Virus record (IMG/VR): IMGVR_UViG_3300032157_000373
Span: 1 to 42,561 of that record
DNA from: a virus
Reading direction: 5' to 3' (one strand)
Length of the DNA: 42,561 nt
Under the pieces are notes generated by a model. It was not told the DNA's origin. It made no database searches and worked only from the letters and a program-made list of their open reading frames with translations. Each line of letters opens with the position of its first letter. The stretch's first letter is position 1. This document shows, piece after piece, positions 3,707 through 36,413 of this stretch. The position numbers were made by a program, and so were the translations under genes.

Positions 3707-4507
3707 TTAACTGACGCTCTTTGCGTACTCACGCATGACTGCGGCTTCCTGGTCCGCTCGCTCCTTCACGATCAGATCCGCCAGTCCTTGGACGGTCATC
3801 CCCCTTCGCGCTGCCTCGTCCTTGAGCAGCGTTTGCGCTTTGAGGTTGCCGTTGATGGCGCGCAACGCGACCTCGTAGCGAACCTGCTGCTTGATACTCT
3901 CGTCGATCACCACGACGGGTTCGGCCGGCGGCTCCGTTTCCACGACTACCGGCAGCGCCGGCTCTGCGGCCGACTGTTGGACTGGCGATGCGGCCGGCGT
4001 AATCGAGTAGTCCCGCTCCTCGGCCACCGGCTCGTGCTCTTCCTCTGGTTCGGAAAGCGGCTCCTCGTCATCGATCGCGCCGATAGCTTGGCGCCAGTCG
4101 CCAGCCGTGCTCGAGGGCGGCCTTGGCGCCTCTGCCACGGGCTCAGGCTCGGCCGGGCGCGGCGGGGGCGGGATGTCCCGGTAGAGCGGCGCCTCGGGCT
4201 CTGGCGGGGCTGCTGGAGGCTCTGGAGACGGTAACGGCGCGGGCGGCTCCTGATGGACGTAGAGCTGTCCCTCGGCGGCTGCCTTGGCGCGGCGCCACGC
4301 CTCATAGAACGGGTGGACGAGCAGGAAGTCGTTGAAGCCGCAGCTATCGCCGTGCTTGCGCTCGATGTGCCCGAAGGTCTTGCCGTCGAACGGGTTCCAC
4401 TGGATCACATGGATGTCGGGGTCAAACTCGGCCTCGACCAAGTAGCTCTCGCCGTTGACCGACACGCGGCGATCGTCAGCGATGACGGTAATGCGCATGT
4501 CGTCCAT
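3707..4507 (-). CDS. Unknown protein after the tail fibre, Pro/Glu-rich
   Basis: A 266-residue protein. The first 90 residues look folded (MRITVIADDRRVSVNGESYL..., DIHVIQWNPFDG, GHIERKHG) and resemble short proteins often found beside phage tail-collar genes, with an IHVIQW-type strand. Residues 95-200 are a Pro/Glu/Ala-rich low-complexity linker, and 205-266 form a charged helical tail (QQVRYEVALRAINGNLKAQT). It lies between tail-collar fibre and endolysin, three bases after the fibre stop. A tail-fibre accessory or chaperone role is possible from position only. An alternative ATG lies three codons downstream. Confidence 0.6.
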   Translation of the reverse strand: MDDMRITVIADDRRVSVNGESYLVEAEFDPDIHVIQWNPFDGKTFGHIERKHGDSCGFNDFLLVHPFYEAWRRAKAAAEGQLYVHQEPPAPLPSPEPPAAPPEPEAPLYRDIPPPPRPAEPEPVAEAPRPPSSTAGDWRQAIGAIDDEEPLSEPEEEHEPVAEERDYSITPAASPVQQSAAEPALPVVVETEPPAEPVVVIDESIKQQVRYEVALRAINGNLKAQTLLKDEAARRGMTVQGLADLIVKERADQEAAVMREYAKSVS

Positions 4508-21344: not shown

Positions 21345-22294
21345 TAGGTGGCATCCCGCGTCACGGCTGACCTGTTGCCGTCCGCGTCCACAGTGGCGGT
21401 GATGCGGTTCTTGCTGTCGGCCACGTCGCGATAATTCGCTGTCGTCGTCGCAAGCCCGCTCGCCTTGCCGTAGAGCACGGCTGCAACCAGGCGCTCATGC
21501 TGGCGTGGCGTCAGACCCGTCTCGATACCATTCGTGCGGTCGAGGTAAGCGTCCGCAATCTGGTTGGCGGTCGGGATCACAAGCGCCGCTATGGCCGCAA
21601 GCGTCGCGTCGTCCGCGCCTGCCAATGCCGTCGCCAGCTCAGAGTTCGTAGGCAGGTCGCCAACCAGCGTCGCAAGCGCGGCAACTTGAGTAAGTACCGC
21701 ATCGTCTGCCGTTCCTAGAGCAGTTGCGAGCTCGGCGTTGGTGGGCAGGTCGGCGACGCTCGTGTCCAGAGTATCGAAGCGCCCGGCGATCACTGACGCA
21801 TCGGCAGGATCGGAGGGTAGGTTGTCGGTCTTGGCTTTAATGGCGGCAACCTCGGTGTCCACGTAGCTGGCGAGGGTTGCTAGATCCGCAGCGCTTGCAA
21901 GCGCTGTCAGCCCCGCACCCAACGCCCCGATGTCATCGGTCTGCGCTTCGATGGCCGCAATGTCCGCTGACACGGACGCACCAGCCGGCGCACCAAGACG
22001 CGCGAACCCGTCCCCCGTCTGCGGGAAGCTCGTGTAAATCTGGACAGTCGCGGGAACCGCACCCGTCCCGATGAACGTGAATGCAACGTGATCGTAATTC
22101 GTCTCTGCTTGAGCCGGGGCATAGGTGTGGAACCCGTTGCCCTCGTGCGTGCAGGCGCCTGACCCAACAGAGCCCGTGGCCTGAGTGCCGCCGTCTCCAG
22201 TGACATGCACCGTGACGGAACCCGTGAAGGCAGCGCCGTCTGTCGCGCTGACCATCTGCGCGCCGACGACTTGGGAGGCGACGTTCTTGCGCAA
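21344..22294 (-). CDS. Ala/Asp/Thr-rich virion-type protein with internal repeats
   Basis: A 316-residue protein. Residues 1-100 are a beta-rich domain (FTGSVTVHVTGDGGTQATGS). Residues 110-240 are helical with the common phage-linker phrase YVDTEVAAIKAKTDNLPSDP, and contain a tandem repeat: LPTNAELATALGTADDAVL (about 183-201) and LPTNSELATALAGADDATL (about 214-232). The C-terminal 60 residues (ANQIADAYLDRTNGIETGLT) end in a DADGNRSAVTRDAT strand. The start appears to be TTG, following directly on TAA. Probably a virion component; the exact role is unknown. Confidence 0.6.
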   Translation of the reverse strand: MRKNVASQVVGAQMVSATDGAAFTGSVTVHVTGDGGTQATGSVGSGACTHEGNGFHTYAPAQAETNYDHVAFTFIGTGAVPATVQIYTSFPQTGDGFARLGAPAGASVSADIAAIEAQTDDIGALGAGLTALASAADLATLASYVDTEVAAIKAKTDNLPSDPADASVIAGRFDTLDTSVADLPTNAELATALGTADDAVLTQVAALATLVGDLPTNSELATALAGADDATLAAIAALVIPTANQIADAYLDRTNGIETGLTPRQHERLVAAVLYGKASGLATTTANYRDVADSKNRITATVDADGNRSAVTRDAT

Positions 22295-28119: not shown

Positions 28120-28557
28120 TTATTTATATTCGATGTCACGCGCTGCTGGTAATGTTGGCCTATCGCAGCCGGGTGGGGGGCTGTTCGCTAACCGACTGGC
28201 GTAGTCCGCAACCTCGCTCTCCTTCCGGTATAGCGTATCGCGCAGCGCAAAGCCCATAAGCGGCCAGAGCTGACGAACCGCGTTCTCGTAGGCGAGTTTG
28301 ATCCCAAGCTCTCGATTGAAGTTCTGCGGCGAGGCCGGCGCACTGTGGCCAATGACCACGAAGCCGTTCCGCATCACGAGGATGCAAAGCGAGAGCACGG
28401 CCAGCTGCCCTGGATCAGCAGCCACGTAGCAGGCGCTCACGGCCTCGGTTCCGGTCACGTCGTAGCGGCTCATAATCGCGCCCTCTATGTCCGCGAGCGA
28501 CACGCGCGGAGCTACCGCCACGGCCGCGCACTCAGCCTCAGTCTCATTCAAGCTCAT
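28120..28557 (-). CDS. N4 gp49 / Sf6 gp66 family protein
   Basis: A 145-residue protein whose core fits the phage gp49/gp66 family: LAVLSLCILVMRNGFVVIGH, SAPASPQNFNRELGIKLAYE, then NAVRQLWPLMGFALRDTL. The pattern NGF-x-x-x-G-x-SA...NF...G...A...A-x-x-x-x-WPL-x-G is characteristic. The family is common in phage early regions and has no known activity. Its ATG overlaps the helicase stop (ATGA), so it is translated with the replication operon. Confidence 0.75.
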   Translation of the reverse strand: MSLNETEAECAAVAVAPRVSLADIEGAIMSRYDVTGTEAVSACYVAADPGQLAVLSLCILVMRNGFVVIGHSAPASPQNFNRELGIKLAYENAVRQLWPLMGFALRDTLYRKESEVADYASRLANSPPPGCDRPTLPAARDIEYK

Positions 28558-30200
28558 AGCAATTCCTTTCCTTCATTTGAGGGAGCAGCATCCGCAACAG
28601 CAGGCGTGTACCTGCCCGTGCGGCGGTCGTAGCGAAGACATGCTTCGCCCGGTACCCCGCCCTGCTCATAGCGGGATTTCTTCACGTAGACTTTCGCGAG
28701 GCTGTGTGTGATCTCTGGACGCTCGATGACTACGCCGTGATCGGCCGCGTTGTACCAGTGAGCCGAACCGTCGATGTCGTAGAGGCCCGGCGTGCGTGTC
28801 TTGCCATTGCGCGGATCGCGCACGTCCTTCGTCGGGTGGACGACGATTGCCACTCCGCACTCGAAGGCGCGAGCAAAGCGCTTCAGCTCGGCCAGCGCGC
28901 GTTCTTGATATTCAACCTTGTCCTCGCCCTTCTTGCGCGAGTGCTGGATCTGGTTCCATGGATCAAGAAGAAGCCACTTGATACCGTAGCGGATCACAGC
29001 ATCCGACGCCTTCTCGATGATCCACTCGAGGTCCATGCGCTCGAATGACGTTGGGTCCTCGTCGATGAACACAAAGCGCTCGTTGATCCACTTGTTGGCT
29101 TCCTCGCGATCGCCCCCATGATACCGGCGCAGCACGTTGGCCACGTAGGGCTCAATCCGCATCTCGAAGGACGCAATGCACCAATTGTGGTCGTAGGCTT
29201 CCGCGATCTGCGCCGCGAGGTTGAGCGCCCATGTGCTCTTACCGTGCGTCGGGATGCCGGTGATGACCAGCAGCTCAGACGGCCACAGCTTCAAATGCTG
29301 GTTGAGATTGATCCACCCGGTGCTGAAAGTCTCGACTTGAGGGACTGGTGGATAATCGGCGAGCTTGAACAGGCCGCGGATAGGATAGGGACGGGCGTTC
29401 TCAACCACAGCCCTGACGCCTGCCTCACCATGAGCCTTGAGAACTTCGTTGAGGTCTTTGGTGCCTTGTGGGTAATCCAGCCAAGCGCATCGAGCAGCGC
29501 CGAACCGGCGCGCAAGCTCAGCATTGAGCCTTCGTCCAGCTTCGTCTCCATCGCCACCGAGGACGAAACGGGGGACTGTGTCGAGGAGCGACCAGATGTC
29601 CACCATGAAATCGAGATTGGAATCGGCCCCGTCAGGGACGGATACCGTTCGCGGTAGATCGCACTGGATTGCTGTGTAGGCATCGAACTCCCCTTCAAGA
29701 ACTAGCGCCGGCATTTTCGCAAGCGTCGAATCGCGCAGAGCATCCTCGTTCCAGAAACTCGACGGTGCGCCGGGATCTTTCAGAAACTTCTTCCCCGGCC
29801 CGCGATATTTGCGGTTGATGACCACGCCCTCGCGCACGTACGGGAAGACCAGCGCATCAGCCTTCCTGCCATCGCGCCCACCGAATTTTCCCGGCTCCGA
29901 ATACAACCCGAGGCGAACCGCTACCTCTGGGTCGAGGCCGCGGGATTCGAGCGCCCGAACGTGCTGCTCGCTCAGCGTTCGTGAAAGCTCCGTCGTGCCA
30001 TCCGCAGGTTGTGTGGTGGCAGTGCCATGCGACGGCACCTTGCTCAACGATGACTGAGAGGCAGCGCTGCCCCTTGTGCCGCTTCCTCGTGTGGTCGCAT
30101 CGTGGGCATCTGACGCGGTGGCGTTTGCGCGCGCTCCAGTGGTGATCGAGCTCGATCCCTGCGGCCTTGAGGATGTCTGCGATGGTTTCGTAGTTGCCAT
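28554..30200 (-). CDS. TOPRIM primase-helicase (T7 gp4-like) core, zinc domain in another frame
   Basis: Replicative primase/helicase. From about residue 75: LSEQHVRALESRGLDPEVAV (linker), TOPRIM with LVLEGEFDAYTA (167-178) and LGGDGDEAG (214-222), then a RecA-type helicase with Walker A GIPTHGKST (315-323), Walker B-like WLLLDPWNQ (409-417) and a VVHPTKD block near 453-459. The first 70 residues are Ser/Thr low complexity and mirror, out of frame, the zinc-binding domain encoded by the overlapping gene. T7 gp4 carries both domains in one chain. The ATG at 30200 lies four bases after the ATG of the zinc-domain frame. Either two proteins are made, or a frameshift joins them. Confidence 0.88.
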   Translation of the reverse strand: MATTKPSQTSSRPQGSSSITTGARANATASDAHDATTRGSGTRGSAASQSSLSKVPSHGTATTQPADGTTELSRTLSEQHVRALESRGLDPEVAVRLGLYSEPGKFGGRDGRKADALVFPYVREGVVINRKYRGPGKKFLKDPGAPSSFWNEDALRDSTLAKMPALVLEGEFDAYTAIQCDLPRTVSVPDGADSNLDFMVDIWSLLDTVPRFVLGGDGDEAGRRLNAELARRFGAARCAWLDYPQGTKDLNEVLKAHGEAGVRAVVENARPYPIRGLFKLADYPPVPQVETFSTGWINLNQHLKLWPSELLVITGIPTHGKSTWALNLAAQIAEAYDHNWCIASFEMRIEPYVANVLRRYHGGDREEANKWINERFVFIDEDPTSFERMDLEWIIEKASDAVIRYGIKWLLLDPWNQIQHSRKKGEDKVEYQERALAELKRFARAFECGVAIVVHPTKDVRDPRNGKTRTPGLYDIDGSAHWYNAADHGVVIERPEITHSLAKVYVKKSRYEQGGVPGEACLRYDRRTGRYTPAVADAAPSNEGKELL

Positions 30201-30204
30201 CCAT
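29857..30204 (-). CDS. Primase zinc-binding domain protein in overlapping frame
   Basis: A 115-residue frame with a phage primase zinc ribbon: YETIADILKAAGIELDHHWS, then VRCPRCDHTRKRHKGQRCLS (C33, C36) and VAWHCHHTTCGWHDG (C62, C67). This matches the N-terminal zinc domain normally fused to the TOPRIM-helicase. Its ATG overlaps the TGA of the upstream gene (ATGA), the usual coupling in this operon. Residues after about 75 become Arg/Pro/Gly-rich and are probably the shadow of the helicase frame. The reading frames cross at about 29970-29998; a +1 shift there would restore a classical primase-helicase. Confidence 0.8.
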   Translation of the reverse strand: MDGNYETIADILKAAGIELDHHWSARKRHRVRCPRCDHTRKRHKGQRCLSVIVEQGAVAWHCHHTTCGWHDGAFTNAERAARSGARIPRPRPRGSGSPRVVFGAGKIRWARWQEG

Positions 30205-30890
30205 CAGCCCCCCCTGCCCATGAGACCAGGTGCGAGCTTTGCTTCCGCGAGACGCTGGCAGACCATACCCATGACGACGATGGGCTTGCGGATCTCGGCC
30301 CCGCTTGCGAGCTGCGCGCAAACCTCCGCGTAGGCGTTCTTCACTACGTCGGCACCGTAGAGGGTCAGTTGTTGGTCGAGCGTCGCGTTTGCGATTCTCT
30401 CATCCGGCACAGAAGAATTCACCCACTTGGCCAGACTCTCGACGATCATCCGTCGTGCTGGACTAACTGCCTTTGACGGCGCAGCGGCAACTACGCTGCT
30501 GCTGGGTGATTCCGTAGAAGTTGGAGATTCCCTATCAACGTTGGAATCGGGAGGGGGGTGTATTTTTTCTTTAGAGGGGGTGTGGGGGAGACCTTTCTTT
30601 TTTAGGGGGGAGGGGTGCGAACTGTGGTTCGCAGGGGTGCGAACTGTGGTTCGCAGCGAACTGGAGTTCGTAGGGTGCGAACTGTGGTTCGCATGCAGTT
30701 TCTGAATGGCGCGCTTCGTGACGCCCAGAACCTGGCTCAACTCGGCTGTGCCGGTGATGCCGAGCGCGGCGAGAACAGCAACGAGCTTCCGCGCCGGTGT
30801 GCCATCGGTTTCTCGAGCTAGGTTCACGAGGTGATCACGTTGTGTCGATGAAATGTTCTTGACTTTGCCGCAATCGTTTCTTAGGTGCAT
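30204..30890 (-). CDS. HTH replication protein carrying iterons inside its gene
   Basis: A 228-residue early protein. Residues 12-66 look like a helix-turn-helix domain (RDHLVNLARETDGTPARKLV, GTAELSQVLGVTKRAIQKLH). Residues 67-150 are a low-complexity Ser/Pro/His linker coded by the iteron repeats and a G/T-rich block. Residues 155-228 form a helical C-terminal domain (ARRMIVESLAKWVNSSVPDE, KPIVVMGMVCQRLAEAKL). A wHTH N-terminus, linker with iterons and helical C-terminus match the plan of lambda O-type initiators. GAAGGAG precedes the ATG. It sits directly upstream of the primase frames. Confidence 0.7.
   Translation of the reverse strand: MHLRNDCGKVKNISSTQRDHLVNLARETDGTPARKLVAVLAALGITGTAELSQVLGVTKRAIQKLHANHSSHPTNSSSLRTTVRTPANHSSHPSPLKKKGLPHTPSKEKIHPPPDSNVDRESPTSTESPSSSVVAAAPSKAVSPARRMIVESLAKWVNSSVPDERIANATLDQQLTLYGADVVKNAYAEVCAQLASGAEIRKPIVVMGMVCQRLAEAKLAPGLMGRGG
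30543..30613. other. Strand-asymmetric A/T-rich block beside iterons (putative DNA unwinding element)
   Basis: The + strand here is nearly all G and T runs: G-rich blocks (30550-30557, 30576-30589, 30605-30614) alternate with T-rich blocks (TATTTTTTCTTTAGA around 30561-30575 and TTTCTTTTTTAG around 30593-30604). Such purine/pyrimidine asymmetry next to iterons is found at lambdoid origins, where it melts first. It lies inside the replication gene on the side towards its 3' end. Confidence 0.55.
30616..30693. repeat. Four iteron-like palindromic repeats (putative replication origin)
   Basis: Three identical 18-mers TGCGAACTGTGGTTCGCA at 30616-30633, 30638-30655 and 30676-30693, plus a degenerate copy AGCGAACTGGAGTTCGTA at 30655-30672 (four differences). 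Each perfect copy is an inverted repeat with 7-base arms (TGCGAAC/GTTCGCA) around TGTG. Start-to-start distances are 22, 17 and 21 bases, about two helical turns. They lie within the replication gene and code for a Ser/His/Thr-rich linker. The location and the adjoining A/T-rich block fit an initiator-binding origin. Confidence 0.75.
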
Positions 30891-30984: not shown

Positions 30985-32151
30985 CTAGGCAGCGTCAGAG
31001 TTCTGCATGTAGGGCAGGATGCCCCGGTAGAATTTCTTCCCGTCGATGTCCTCCATGGTTGAAACGAACTTCGCTGCAATCCGCCGGAACGTCTCAACCG
31101 GCAACGGCGCGTCGTTCGACTGCCTGCAAATCTCTCCATAGTGGCGGTAGAAATCTTCCTCTGGCAGCACGCCAGACTCGATGTGGCGTGTGTGCTCGCG
31201 GAAAAAGTATTCGCAGAGCTGGCGGCGCGCGGTCAGCATGTCGATCGACACGACGGGCGCCTTCTTGATCGCGGCAGGCGACTGAATGAGAGCCGGCTTT
31301 TGCACTGACCGGCGTGCTTCAATCTCGCGCTCGCTCTCGCCCGTTTCCTCGCGCTTCAACGTCCATCCGAAGAGGATGATTGCCAACTTCCAGCACGAGG
31401 CTCCCATGACCTCGAGCACGACTGGCGTGGCCATGGCGAGCAGCACGCGCACAGAGCGCTGAGCCATACCCGTCACTTCTGACACACCGTCCACAAACGG
31501 ATCGGCGCTCGCGGTCGTTACCGGCGGGGCCGCTTCGATCTTGCTCGAGAGAGCGTCTATCTGCGTGGTGAGCTTGTCCGCCTTCAAGGCCGAGTCGCGC
31601 TCGCCTTCAAGCGTGCGTAGGTTCATGCAGAAGTCGCGTGAGGCTCTTGCGGTGGCGTCGGTGCATTCACCGGAGCTCGTCCACCGCTTGTTGTTCTTCT
31701 CGGCTTCAATCAGCCTTTCAACCGTGTCCGCTGGGCGATGCTGCGGAATGCCGGCGAGCTGCGCCTTGAGGTTTTTTAGCTGATCGCGCGTGTTATCGAG
31801 CGCTTCGGATTTGTGGGCAATCTCGGCAACTTTTTCCTCGCGCAGCTTGGCGATATTCGAAGTGCCCATCATGAAGTTGTAGAAGAAGAAAATCACCCAG
31901 AGCAGCACGATCAAGAACCGCTGTCCGAAGCGGGAGAGTGCATGCGATGTGATGACGACGATCGAGAACAGCATGGGGATGACGGCGAGCAGCCAGGGAA
32001 CTGCGGCGCCGCCGGCAGCGAGCGCGGCTCGCTCCCAGGTGTCATGCTCATGAGCCCATCTGACGGCGCCGTTGCCGAGCAGATAGGAGTTCGCGAGAAG
32101 AGCAACCGAACCAATAATTGCAAGCAGTCCCCCAACCCAATAGCGAAACAT
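30985..32151 (-). CDS. Multi-pass membrane protein with coiled coil in the replication operon
   Basis: A 388-residue protein. Three membrane segments near the N-terminus (about 4-25, 47-68, 78-98: VGGLLAIIGSVALLANSYLL; WLLAVIPMLFSIVVITSHAL; RFLIVLLWVIFFFYNFMMG), a long coiled coil (about 100-210), a fourth hydrophobic part near 233-262 (VRVLLAMATPVVLEVMGASC), and a soluble helical end from about 305 (LTARRQLCEYFFREHTRHIE). GGGG lies six bases or so before the ATG at 32151; a GTG four codons earlier is possible. No function is recognised. Its place between resolvase and replication genes could mean membrane attachment of replication, or superinfection exclusion. Confidence 0.65.
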   Translation of the reverse strand: MFRYWVGGLLAIIGSVALLANSYLLGNGAVRWAHEHDTWERAALAAGGAAVPWLLAVIPMLFSIVVITSHALSRFGQRFLIVLLWVIFFFYNFMMGTSNIAKLREEKVAEIAHKSEALDNTRDQLKNLKAQLAGIPQHRPADTVERLIEAEKNNKRWTSSGECTDATARASRDFCMNLRTLEGERDSALKADKLTTQIDALSSKIEAAPPVTTASADPFVDGVSEVTGMAQRSVRVLLAMATPVVLEVMGASCWKLAIILFGWTLKREETGESEREIEARRSVQKPALIQSPAAIKKAPVVSIDMLTARRQLCEYFFREHTRHIESGVLPEEDFYRHYGEICRQSNDAPLPVETFRRIAAKFVSTMEDIDGKKFYRGILPYMQNSDAA

Positions 32152-32172
32152 TTGTGCCCCCACAGGCTATGT

Positions 32173-32778
32173 TTACTTGCTGACTTCGTTAGCGGTTTTT
32201 GCTGCGGTCTTTGCTGACCGCTTGAAGGAGTCGATGCCGTAGGCGTAGCTCAACGCGAATTGAAACTTGCGTGTGCCAACGAGGATGATCAGTTTGTTTT
32301 TCTCTCGTCCCCAATGGCAACGCTTAATCCCGTGCTCCGTCATGATCGGCTCGAGGATCTTGTCTGCCTCCTTGGGCTCGACCGGCTTCTGTGGCGCTTT
32401 CACTTCTGGCCCCGCTACGTTGATGTGATCTCCCCCGGCGATAGTGACGATGGCGTTGCGCCCCTTGCGGTCCAGCCACTCAGCCGTGACGGAATCGATG
32501 CGGCTGTCATCGACGATGACGCGCATGTGAACCAGGGCATCGAGGATGGCTTTGAGGTAGTTGTCGGCGTCACGCGGGCGGCGGTCTGGGCGCTCGAGAC
32601 TGACCGCCACCCGGTAGGGCGGGCCGAGCGTCTTGTTCTTCGCGCTGGCGATGATCCAGTAGGCCGCGTCACGCCATCGCTTGTATTGCTTCGACGGGAA
32701 GCGGCGCCCACGGACCGTTTGTGAGAAGAGATTATTGACGGTCGGTGGAAACGGCAGCGTGATTGTGACGATACGCAT
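32173..32778 (-). CDS. rusA: RusA-family Holliday junction resolvase
   Basis: A 201-residue protein. Residues 1-110 fit RusA: TLPFPPTVNNLFSQTVRGRR, RPDRRPRDADNYLKAILDAL, then VIVDDSRIDSVTAEW with the acidic residues (DxDN, DxL, DD) that bind the metal. RusA cuts Holliday junctions and would resolve recombination and packaging intermediates. Residues 120-201 are an extra tail (KAPQKPVEPKEADKILEPIM ... RKFQFALSYAYG) not usual in RusA. The ATG at 32778 is chosen because the RusA fold starts there; a longer frame begins 14 codons upstream within the promoter. It is the first gene of the leftward operon. Confidence 0.87.
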   Translation of the reverse strand: MRIVTITLPFPPTVNNLFSQTVRGRRFPSKQYKRWRDAAYWIIASAKNKTLGPPYRVAVSLERPDRRPRDADNYLKAILDALVHMRVIVDDSRIDSVTAEWLDRKGRNAIVTIAGGDHINVAGPEVKAPQKPVEPKEADKILEPIMTEHGIKRCHWGREKNKLIILVGTRKFQFALSYAYGIDSFKRSAKTAAKTANEVSK

Positions 32779-32801
32779 TAGCTCAAGCCCCCGCGCGGCG
32801 A

Positions 32802-32839
32802 GTAACTTGACCTTATGCAAATTCCCTGTTAACCGTCAA
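32802..32839 (-). promoter_or_regulatory. Leftward early promoter with operator
   Basis: Reading leftwards: -35 TTGACG (32839-32834), 16-base spacer, -10 CATAAG (32817-32812). On the + strand the stretch GTAACTTGACCTTAT (32802-32816) agrees with the shared operator at all but three fixed positions and covers the -10. It would drive RusA and the replication genes, and be closed by the repressor encoded next door. Confidence 0.6.
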
Positions 32840-34695: not shown

Positions 34696-35190
34696 ATGAA
34701 GATCAAGAATTGGGATCCGTCGAAGGGCGACGCGCAACAGGGCGACGTGATCCTGTTTCGCGTTCCCGAGCGCATGAAGCTGGATACCAGCCGCGAGATT
34801 GAAGCGCGCGACAACCGCCTGATCCTGGCGGAAGGTGAGATCACCGGACATCACCACGCGATCTGGGATCGCAACCCGCCAACAATGCTCCGCGAGGACG
34901 GTTCAGGAGCCGGCATCTCGACCACCGACACCGAGCGGATGCTGAAAGCCGCAACGGCAAAGCGCTCCGGTACGGCCAAGCTCTACGAGGATCGCACTAC
35001 CATCACCGCACTCGTTAGCGCGGGTGAGCTGGCGCATGACCGTCTCGCCATCGGCTTCCTAGTCGTCGAGCACGCACCTGTGGTGCTGCGTCATGACGAG
35101 CACGATGCAATCCGCATTCCTCCCGGTCGCTACTACGTCGGCCGACAGGCTGAGTACGACGGCGCCGAAGAGCGCCGCGTGCAGGATTGA
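34696..35190 (+). CDS. Unknown protein with GHHH motif, partner of the repeat protein
   Basis: A 164-residue beta-rich protein: GDAQQGDVILFRVPERM, then RLILAEGEITGHHHAIWDRN (a GHHH metal-site-like motif), VSAGELAHDRLAIGFLVVEH, and HDEHDAIRIPPGRYYVGRQA. It ends in a Tyr/Glu tail (EYDGAEERRVQD). From memory, proteins with EGExTGHHH and a closing RIPPGxY motif stand next to DUF6745 proteins in other bacteria and phages; this needs a database check. GGGAG is seven bases before the ATG at 34696. The next gene starts 11 bases after its stop. Function unknown; the paired His suggest metal binding. Confidence 0.6.
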   Translation: MKIKNWDPSKGDAQQGDVILFRVPERMKLDTSREIEARDNRLILAEGEITGHHHAIWDRNPPTMLREDGSGAGISTTDTERMLKAATAKRSGTAKLYEDRTTITALVSAGELAHDRLAIGFLVVEHAPVVLRHDEHDAIRIPPGRYYVGRQAEYDGAEERRVQD

Positions 35191-35201
35191 GGGAGGCGGC
35201 G

Positions 35202-36413
35202 ATGGCACGCATCGAGAAGCTGACCCGTGAACAGGAGCGCGAGCTTGTGGCCTTCCGCGAGGAGGAGCGAGCTCGCGCACTCTCCACCGCGCCCGTCGAT
35301 CCTAAGGAAGTGAGATCGAGCGTTGCGGCGCTCTACACCGCGAGCGGCATGAAGCCGCCGATGGCGACGCTTGTGTTCACGAGCCCGCTTCTCTGCCTCT
35401 TGGCGCGAGGCGTTTTACGCCGAGCGCCGAAGCTCGGGGACCAGCTCGGGGCACAGCTCGGGGACCAGCTCGGGGCACAGCTCGGGGCACAGCTCGGGGC
35501 ACAGCTCGGGGCCCAGCTCGGGGACCAGCTCGGGGACCAGCTCGGGGACCAGCTCGGGGCACAGCTCGGGGACCAGCTCGGGGCACAGCTCGGGGCACAG
35601 CTCGGGGCACAGCTCAGGGCCCAGCTCGGGGCACAGCTCGGGGCACAGCTCAGGGCCCAGCTCTGGGACCAGCTCTGGGCCCAGCTCGGGGACCAGCTCT
35701 GGGCCCAGCTCGGGGACCAGCTCGGGGCCCAGCTCGGGGCCCAGCTCGCCAAAGGCGAGTTGTTTGATGCCCTATGGTTTTTAGGCGCATGGGACGCCTT
35801 CTGGCTCGCTTTCTATCAGTTCGGAAGGAAGATCGGAGTCGCTCTCAGGAGCGAGAGCGCCGCGCGTCTCGACGCCTATCAGCAGTACGCGCATTCCTGC
35901 GGCGTCTCGTACCTCTACCCGTCGATTGCGTTCGTCAGTGACAGGCCAGAACGCATCTCATTCGACACGTCACGTCGCTTGCACAACGCAACGGGGCCAG
36001 CGCTCCTCTACCGGGACGGCTTCGCTCTCTATGCCTGGAAGGGCTTCCGTCTCGACGGAAAGTGGATCGTCAACCGCGACAAGACCCAAGCATCCGAGAT
36101 CATAAAAGAGCGCAATGCCGAGCTGCGGCGCGTGCTCATGGAAATCTACGCGGACGTGCACGGCCCCGGCCGCGCGATCATCGATATGGGCGCCAAGACG
36201 ATCTCCGAGGATGTCGAGCACGGCCGTCCGCGGCGCCTGATCGACATCCAGGGCGCGCGCTTCGTGCATGTCGTCAACGGCTCGCTCGAGCCTGACGGGG
36301 CGCGGCGGGAATTCCTGCTTGGGGCGCATCCATCTGCGAAGACACCGCACGAGGCTGTGGCGATGAGCTACGGCCGCCCGGCTGGCAAGTACCGGGAGGC
36401 GGTGCGAACGTGA
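35202..36413 (+). CDS. DUF6745-like protein with 26 tetrapeptide repeats
   Basis: A 403-residue protein. Residues 1-77 form an N-terminal part ([40 protein letters not shown]). Residues 78-181 are exactly 26 units of Leu-(Gly/Arg/Trp)-(Asp/Ala)-Gln. Residues 182-403 are a conserved domain: [60 protein letters not shown], then [16 protein letters not shown] and [15 protein letters not shown]. The latter order fits DUF6745 as I recall it. The ATG at 35202 follows GGGAGGCGGCG; a TTG five codons earlier is rejected. Function unknown; the repeat would form a long amphipathic helix or filament-like spacer. Confidence 0.7.
35433..35744 (+). repeat. 26 tandem copies of a 12-bp repeat
   Basis: A contiguous array of 12-base units of the type CTCGGGGACCAG / CTCGGGGCACAG / CTCGGGGCCCAG, with variants CTCAGGGCCCAG and CTCTGGGACCAG; 312 bases, all in frame with the host gene. 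Every other frame is also open over the array, producing Ser/Gly or Ala/Pro ORFs that are artefacts. Copy number is likely to vary by slippage without breaking the frame. Confidence 0.92.

Follow-up and report, generated by a model that had tools for sequence, protein, structure and literature searches.

A candidate origin inside a replication gene

The window analysed here is an IMG/VR virus record in its entirety (42,561 bases). Its minus strand carries an initiator-type gene, which encodes the protein P0001 and is immediately followed by a gene for a TOPRIM/DnaB-like primase-helicase. A cluster of four iterons and a strand-asymmetric stretch both lie within the initiator-type gene (Table 1). 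The annotated start of the primase-helicase gene was set mechanically, and its true start is probably located further inside.

Table 1. Positions of the iterons, the block and the surrounding genes in the window. L333 is the related locus described in the text.
Feature	Position	Strand	Remarks
TOPRIM/DnaB-like primase-helicase	28554..30200	-	phrog_239, E 2.4e-74; likely partner of the initiator
Zinc-binding primase domain ORF (CPRC...CxxHxxxC)	29857..30204	-	its ATG overlaps the initiator stop codon
Initiator-type gene	30204..30890	-	228 aa; N-terminal helical domain with predicted helix-turn-helix, coil linker, C-terminal helical domain
Conserved strand-asymmetric block	30549..30610	-	common to initiator genes of seven other records with other iterons or proteins
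Invariant block core	30566..30597	-	GAAAGGTCTCCCCC ACA CCCCCTCTAAAGAAA
Iteron 4, exact	30616..30633	-	read ANHSSH
Iteron 3, exact	30638..30655	-	other codon phase, read LRTTVRT
Iteron 2, degenerate	30655..30672	-	TACGAACTCCAGTTCGCT, read TNSSSL
Iteron 1 (gene order)	30676..30693	-	TGCGAACCACAGTTCGCA, read (H)ANHSSH
Predicted helix-turn-helix	30681..30749	-	residues about 48-70, ...TAELSQVLGVTKRAIQKLH...; AF2 helices 48-55 and 59-70
Predicted membrane protein	30985..32163	-	30% identical homolog in the corresponding position of L333; belongs to the common gene order
RusA-like Holliday junction resolvase	32173..32820	-	L333 has a RusA-like ORF in the corresponding position, by reading

The preliminary description had reported three identical palindromic 18-mers and one degenerate copy, with spacings of 22, 17 and 21 bases, in the middle of a replication-type gene. 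We confirmed this arrangement at 30616-30693. The exact TGCGAACTGTGGTTCGCA (plus strand) was present three times, the fourth copy carried two mismatches, and the distances between starts were 22, 17 and 21. The 18-mer has the form TGCGAAC-N4-GTTCGCA, that is, two perfect 7-nt arms round a non-palindromic TGTG. It is thus an interrupted palindrome (7-4-7) and not the perfect inverted repeat that had been described. Nor do palindromic iterons set the locus apart from lambda, as had been proposed, because the iterons of lambda, too, are inverted repeats (PMC7466680). Throughout the 42.5 kb, exact 18-mers recurring less than 100 nt apart were found only in this cluster, besides a 12-bp coding array at about 35.4-35.7 kb, and the best tandem-repeat score outside that array was that of the iteron cluster. 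The array consists of 26.5 copies of a 12-bp unit (35431-35748), in frame within a 408-aa ORF (35187-36413).

On one side of the iterons we observed the T/G-rich, strand-asymmetric block noted earlier. Its plus strand (30543-30615) contains 35 G, 23 T, 10 A and 5 C, and the 73-nt window with the highest G+T content of the whole record starts at 30547. It had been likened to the AT-rich asymmetric segment of lambda. The likeness held for the asymmetry but not for the AT-richness, as this stretch has 40 G/C and 33 A/T (approximately 45% A+T, compared with approximately 38.5% in the window). The block is laid out as two A-rich stretches among four C-runs.

GC skew had been suggested as a check of the origin. 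The cumulative minimum of the record was at 30,451, but third-position skews did not change sign there. Since they show no strand switch, GC skew is weak and ambiguous evidence for an origin.

Several further observations were made on the surrounding DNA. The zinc-binding primase ORF overlapped the TOPRIM-helicase ORF, in the same alternative frame, at 62 of 66 distinct helicase-clade loci (L126-L204), a count obtained with a loose mechanical Cys/His pattern test and probably including a few long overlaps that are mechanical. At L128, L149, L150 and L193 the ATG of the helicase ORF was located at or just past an in-frame stop. These ORFs may be overlapping genes of a split primase, or they may be fused by a +1 frameshift. 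In the upstream region of more than 12 loci among the helicase-clade relatives we found clusters of at least four 7-mers, which none of 20 shuffles equalled. Therefore, by sequence, iteron-like clusters ahead of the helicase gene are common in this clade. In L147 a longer interrupted palindrome (GGGGTCG...CGACCCC) occurred in four spaced copies upstream of the helicase gene. When 20000-42561 was compared with the phage collection, a single near DNA match was obtained, to phage record MW202621 (Manatee Spring), which was 84.5% identical to the window over 71 bases (21927-21997).

The initiator-type protein and a related locus

P0001 gave no significant match in Pfam or PHROG, replication-initiation families included, and a whole-protein search of phages and viral contigs yielded no relatives. 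Therefore, relatives were sought by means of the helicase, the iterons and the block. A search with a single palindrome gave mostly unrelated matches among the matches listed. Matches to iteron pairs in Chloroflexi, Planctomycetota and similar MAGs were unrelated and mostly outside long ORFs. None of 115 iteron-pair loci matched the window helicase at E 1e-3, and BLASTn with the origin segment gave nothing in phages and one weak plasmid match.

The AF2 model of P0001, built from a two-sequence alignment and of low confidence (pLDDT 47), consisted of helices at residues 15-70, a coil at 71-142 and helices at 144-218. A helix-turn-helix likely ends the N-terminal helical part of the model. The weak HMM matches and the low-confidence model point only weakly to this assignment. 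The TxRAIQK helix of P0001 recurred in the initiator-type protein of L333, and the HTH_23 match of the latter (E 0.004) was below the cut-off. The part of the gene taken up by iterons and block (codons 66 to about 114) corresponds roughly to the modelled coil, and this coil over the repeats and the block resembles the flexible linker of lambda O (PMC6022878).

The related locus (L318/L333) was found by a genome scan for paired GCGAACN4GTTCGC and belongs to a contig of a Hyphomonadaceae MAG. Its genes follow the order of the window, with a RusA-like ORF (by reading), then a gene for a membrane protein, an initiator-type gene and a phrog_239 primase-helicase (E 2.5e-103). The N-terminal domain and linker of P0001 could be aligned with the L333 initiator (E 8e-12). 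The L333 iterons, GCGAACCACAGTTCGC, have the same core as those of the window, and L333 also carries the asymmetric block. The codon phases of the iterons were 2 and 1 for the window (ANHSSH, RTTVRT) and 2 and 0 for L333 (ANHSSP, EPQFA). Because the same DNA is read in all three phases, the comparison of the two sequences indicates that the iteron DNA is kept while the encoded peptide changes. The comparison with relatives that had been proposed thus spoke for the repeats, as L333, the one relative found, keeps the predicted helix-turn-helix as well as the repeats, and keeps them as DNA across codon phases.

We considered whether the 18-mers could be operators, bound by the helix-turn-helix protein or another regulator for control of transcription, with the block as a mere neighbour. 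Interrupted palindromes suit a dimeric repressor, the encoded protein is itself a predicted helix-turn-helix protein, and GAACN4GTTC is similar to the LexA box found in some Gram-positive bacteria. In alphaproteobacteria, should the host be one, the LexA box has another sequence. Moreover, the 18-mers are located inside a coding region, at least 190 nt past the start codon and beside a primase-helicase gene, they recur with the same block in L333, and operators would leave a block common to several initiators unexplained. Control of transcription is therefore a very unlikely role for these repeats.

In Bradyrhizobium tropiciagri (L242, 5871-6794, minus strand) GCGAACN4GTTCGC occurred three times within the gene of an O-like initiator (phrog_1032/391). 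On sequence grounds this is another candidate for an intragenic origin with the same type of iteron as the window. Its helix-turn-helix ends in RRGLQK, which suggested a code between recognition helix and iteron. We do not claim such a code, as RRGLQK-like helix motifs are common among HTH_36 proteins.

The block in other initiator genes

The block pattern C4-TAAA-GAAAGGTCTCCCCC-N3-5-CCCCCTCTAAAGAAA-C4 recurred in seven other viral or bacterial records, so that eight records carry the block. Five viral records (L321-L325) were found with GAAAGGTCTCCCCC-N0-10-CCCCCTCTAAAGAAA; L340, in which one core base is changed, was added by a looser pattern, and L333 came from the iteron pattern. Identity of the core is partly due to selection, because searching with an exact pattern selects for it. 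In our reading of the sequences, the weight rests on the number and placement of the records rather than on core identity. The chance expectation of the 29-base block pattern was roughly 4e-6, and the block was rare in sampled bacterial genomes (1/385, 1/199 and 0/347).

All eight copies were located inside initiator-type genes, in the same orientation, and started 19-33 nt beyond the last iteron half-site of their gene. Each had four C-runs of at least four round two A-rich segments. Across records the first half of the block was read in codon phases 0, 1 and 2. Pairwise identity of the block was 0.76-0.87 between records (1.00 for L321/L322), while the flanking DNA elsewhere than in L321/L322 was at chance identity, near the shuffled level.

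The signal could instead act in RNA, with iteron hairpins or a rut-like stretch controlling termination or translation of the initiator mRNA. Each 18-mer can fold into a 7-bp stem with a 4-nt loop, and, like a Rho loading site, the block has many C and few G on its coding strand. Base-for-base conservation is, however, not expected of Rho sites. The iterons of the other records differ in sequence, a search of Rfam gave no match, and the A-run varies in length among records, so there is no conserved slippery site; for this last reason we also rejected the block as a frameshift site. We regard a signal in RNA as most improbable.

The initiators of L321 and L322 matched phrog_345 (replication initiation, O-like), and those of L323, L324, L325 and L340 matched phrog_270/9474 (replication initiation). 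No phrog_239 helicase was detected in block carriers besides the window and L333, some of the carriers being fragments. As the block occurs in records in which phrog_239 was not detected, the helicase step would differ in those records or use host DnaB there. For the same reason, a pairing of block and primase, in which GTC within the block would serve as a T7-type primase site, was unsupported. Small DnaA domain IV-like ORFs (by reading; e.g. GGRDHTTVLYA) were noted near block-carrying initiators in L333, L321, L323, L335 and L339, and a Rhizobium phage gene adjoining a related initiator is annotated as DnaA-like.

Six of the block carriers (L321-L325 and L340) differed from the window in both iterons and N-terminal domain. 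They contained three to ten GTNACG each and no GCGAAC. GCGAAC half-sites were present seven times in the window and six times in L333, both of the helix-turn-helix type, and GTNACG was absent from either. Type of iteron thus appears to match type of N-terminal domain, the helix-turn-helix side being represented by two records. By reading, the N-terminal parts of the six records have a short basic motif, e.g. NDAERQRRRRAK and variants. This motif, found together with GTNACG palindromes (some GTCACGTGAC) in these initiators and in L338, is faintly like a bZIP basic region.

L321 and L322 shared an identical block and downstream halves with 96-99% identity, while their N-terminal halves were at chance level and their iterons were unrelated to each other. 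The block therefore marks a swap junction, and the simplest account of these two sequences would be that a cassette of N-terminal domain and iterons was exchanged there. Such a junction would also be left by a recombination hot spot, or by a linker kept by recent exchange between phages, without any role in replication. Against this stands a block that is 76-87% identical in all three codon phases, with flanks elsewhere at chance, and that is always located 19-33 nt beyond iterons in initiator genes. Because those flanks are at chance identity, the exchange would have to be old or repeated. We find it highly improbable that recombination alone explains the block.

Proposed mechanism and comparison with known systems

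We consider it likely that the locus is a phage replication origin of lambda type, located inside its own initiator gene, at which the block would be opened and the primase-helicase loaded. The N-terminal helix-turn-helix of P0001, most likely in dimeric form, would bind the four 18-bp interrupted palindromes, and the bound iterons would be packed into a nucleoprotein complex. This complex would open the adjoining asymmetric block, one strand would be captured, and the primase-helicase encoded next door would be loaded onto it. The iterons and the N-terminal domain would form one exchangeable specificity cassette, and the block would be a common opening or loading element for different initiators. 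The anatomy of the locus, the conservation of DNA in all phases, the matching of iterons with N-terminal domains, the swap junction and the location in initiator genes are read from sequence. Binding, opening, strand capture, helicase loading and the start of replication at this locus probably follow by analogy with lambda (PMC7466680, PMC5043065, PMC3349717).

Comparison of the records suggests that the block is a shared plug-in part among start proteins with mostly differing binding sites. More tentatively, and with some doubt on our side, it may be an initiator-independent core, i.e. a fixed platform for strand capture, helicase loading or priming that serves different phage initiators, whichever helicase is used. 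The G-rich strand would perhaps form a G-quadruplex, an idea based on the four C-runs in all eight copies.

Iterons in an initiator gene were already known; for a block common to initiators with different N-terminal domains and iterons we found no description in the open-access literature. The title of PMC5043065 still treats as an open question the way in which DNA is opened by an initiator and passed on to the helicase. If the proposed role is true, a block kept nearly letter for letter among initiators that differ in binding domain, iterons and apparently helicase would separate site recognition from strand opening or loading, roles that are usually mixed. Natural combinations of block, N-terminal domain and iterons would allow direct swap experiments, and the block would offer a DNA signature by which phage origins could be located even within genes.

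Other known systems share parts of this arrangement. The phrog_270/9474 and phrog_345 initiation genes have the same block with iterons immediately before it, inside an initiator gene, but differ from the window in their GTNACG iterons, in both N- and C-terminal domains and in that no phrog_239 helicase was detected. The Roseivivax marinus plasmid NZ_CP090154 (L326) has related half-sites, CGAACCACAGTGCGCAC, beside a replication gene. In contrast to the window, its repeats (about 3780-4060) are located upstream of a gene weakly like RepL, whose protein had no similarity to P0001, and there is no block. In the unwinding elements of iteron plasmids and oriC, initiator sites are likewise located beside repeated A-rich segments, the 13-mers, which the A-rich segments of the window resemble by eye. 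Exact sequence matters in these elements (PMC5043065); unlike them, the window block is not AT-rich overall and is embedded in coding sequence. SPP1 oriL, with gp38-bound direct repeats and an AT-rich unwinding element, has its initiator repeats inside initiator gene 38, as in the window (PMC6316719). Unlike the window, SPP1 uses a separate loader (gp39), the helicase gp40 and a second origin.

The closest parallel is lambda, whose ori consists of four 18-bp iterons and a 38-bp AT-rich stretch within the O gene (PMC3349717). Like the window, it has four inverted-repeat iterons in the middle of the gene and an asymmetric stretch on one side (PMC3349717, PMC6022878, PMC7466680, PMC5043065). In O a flexible linker joins the DNA-binding domain and the P-binding domain (PMC6022878), and P0001 is similar in layout, with a linker region between an N-terminal part and a C-terminal domain which in O bind DNA and the partner, respectively. 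The differences lie in the proteins and the block. No sequence homology of P0001 to O was found in Pfam or PHROG, and among the neighbours scanned no P-like loader was recognised, a phage primase-helicase and a zinc-binding ORF being present instead. The block of the window is C/A-rich, with an A+T content of only 45%, and its sequence is kept in the genes of different initiator proteins. Thus, the earlier proposal of a lambda-like origin inside the replication gene stands for the layout and not for the protein family or helicase recruitment. In summary, the locus resembles lambda O/ori in layout and, judging by this analogy, probably in mechanism too.
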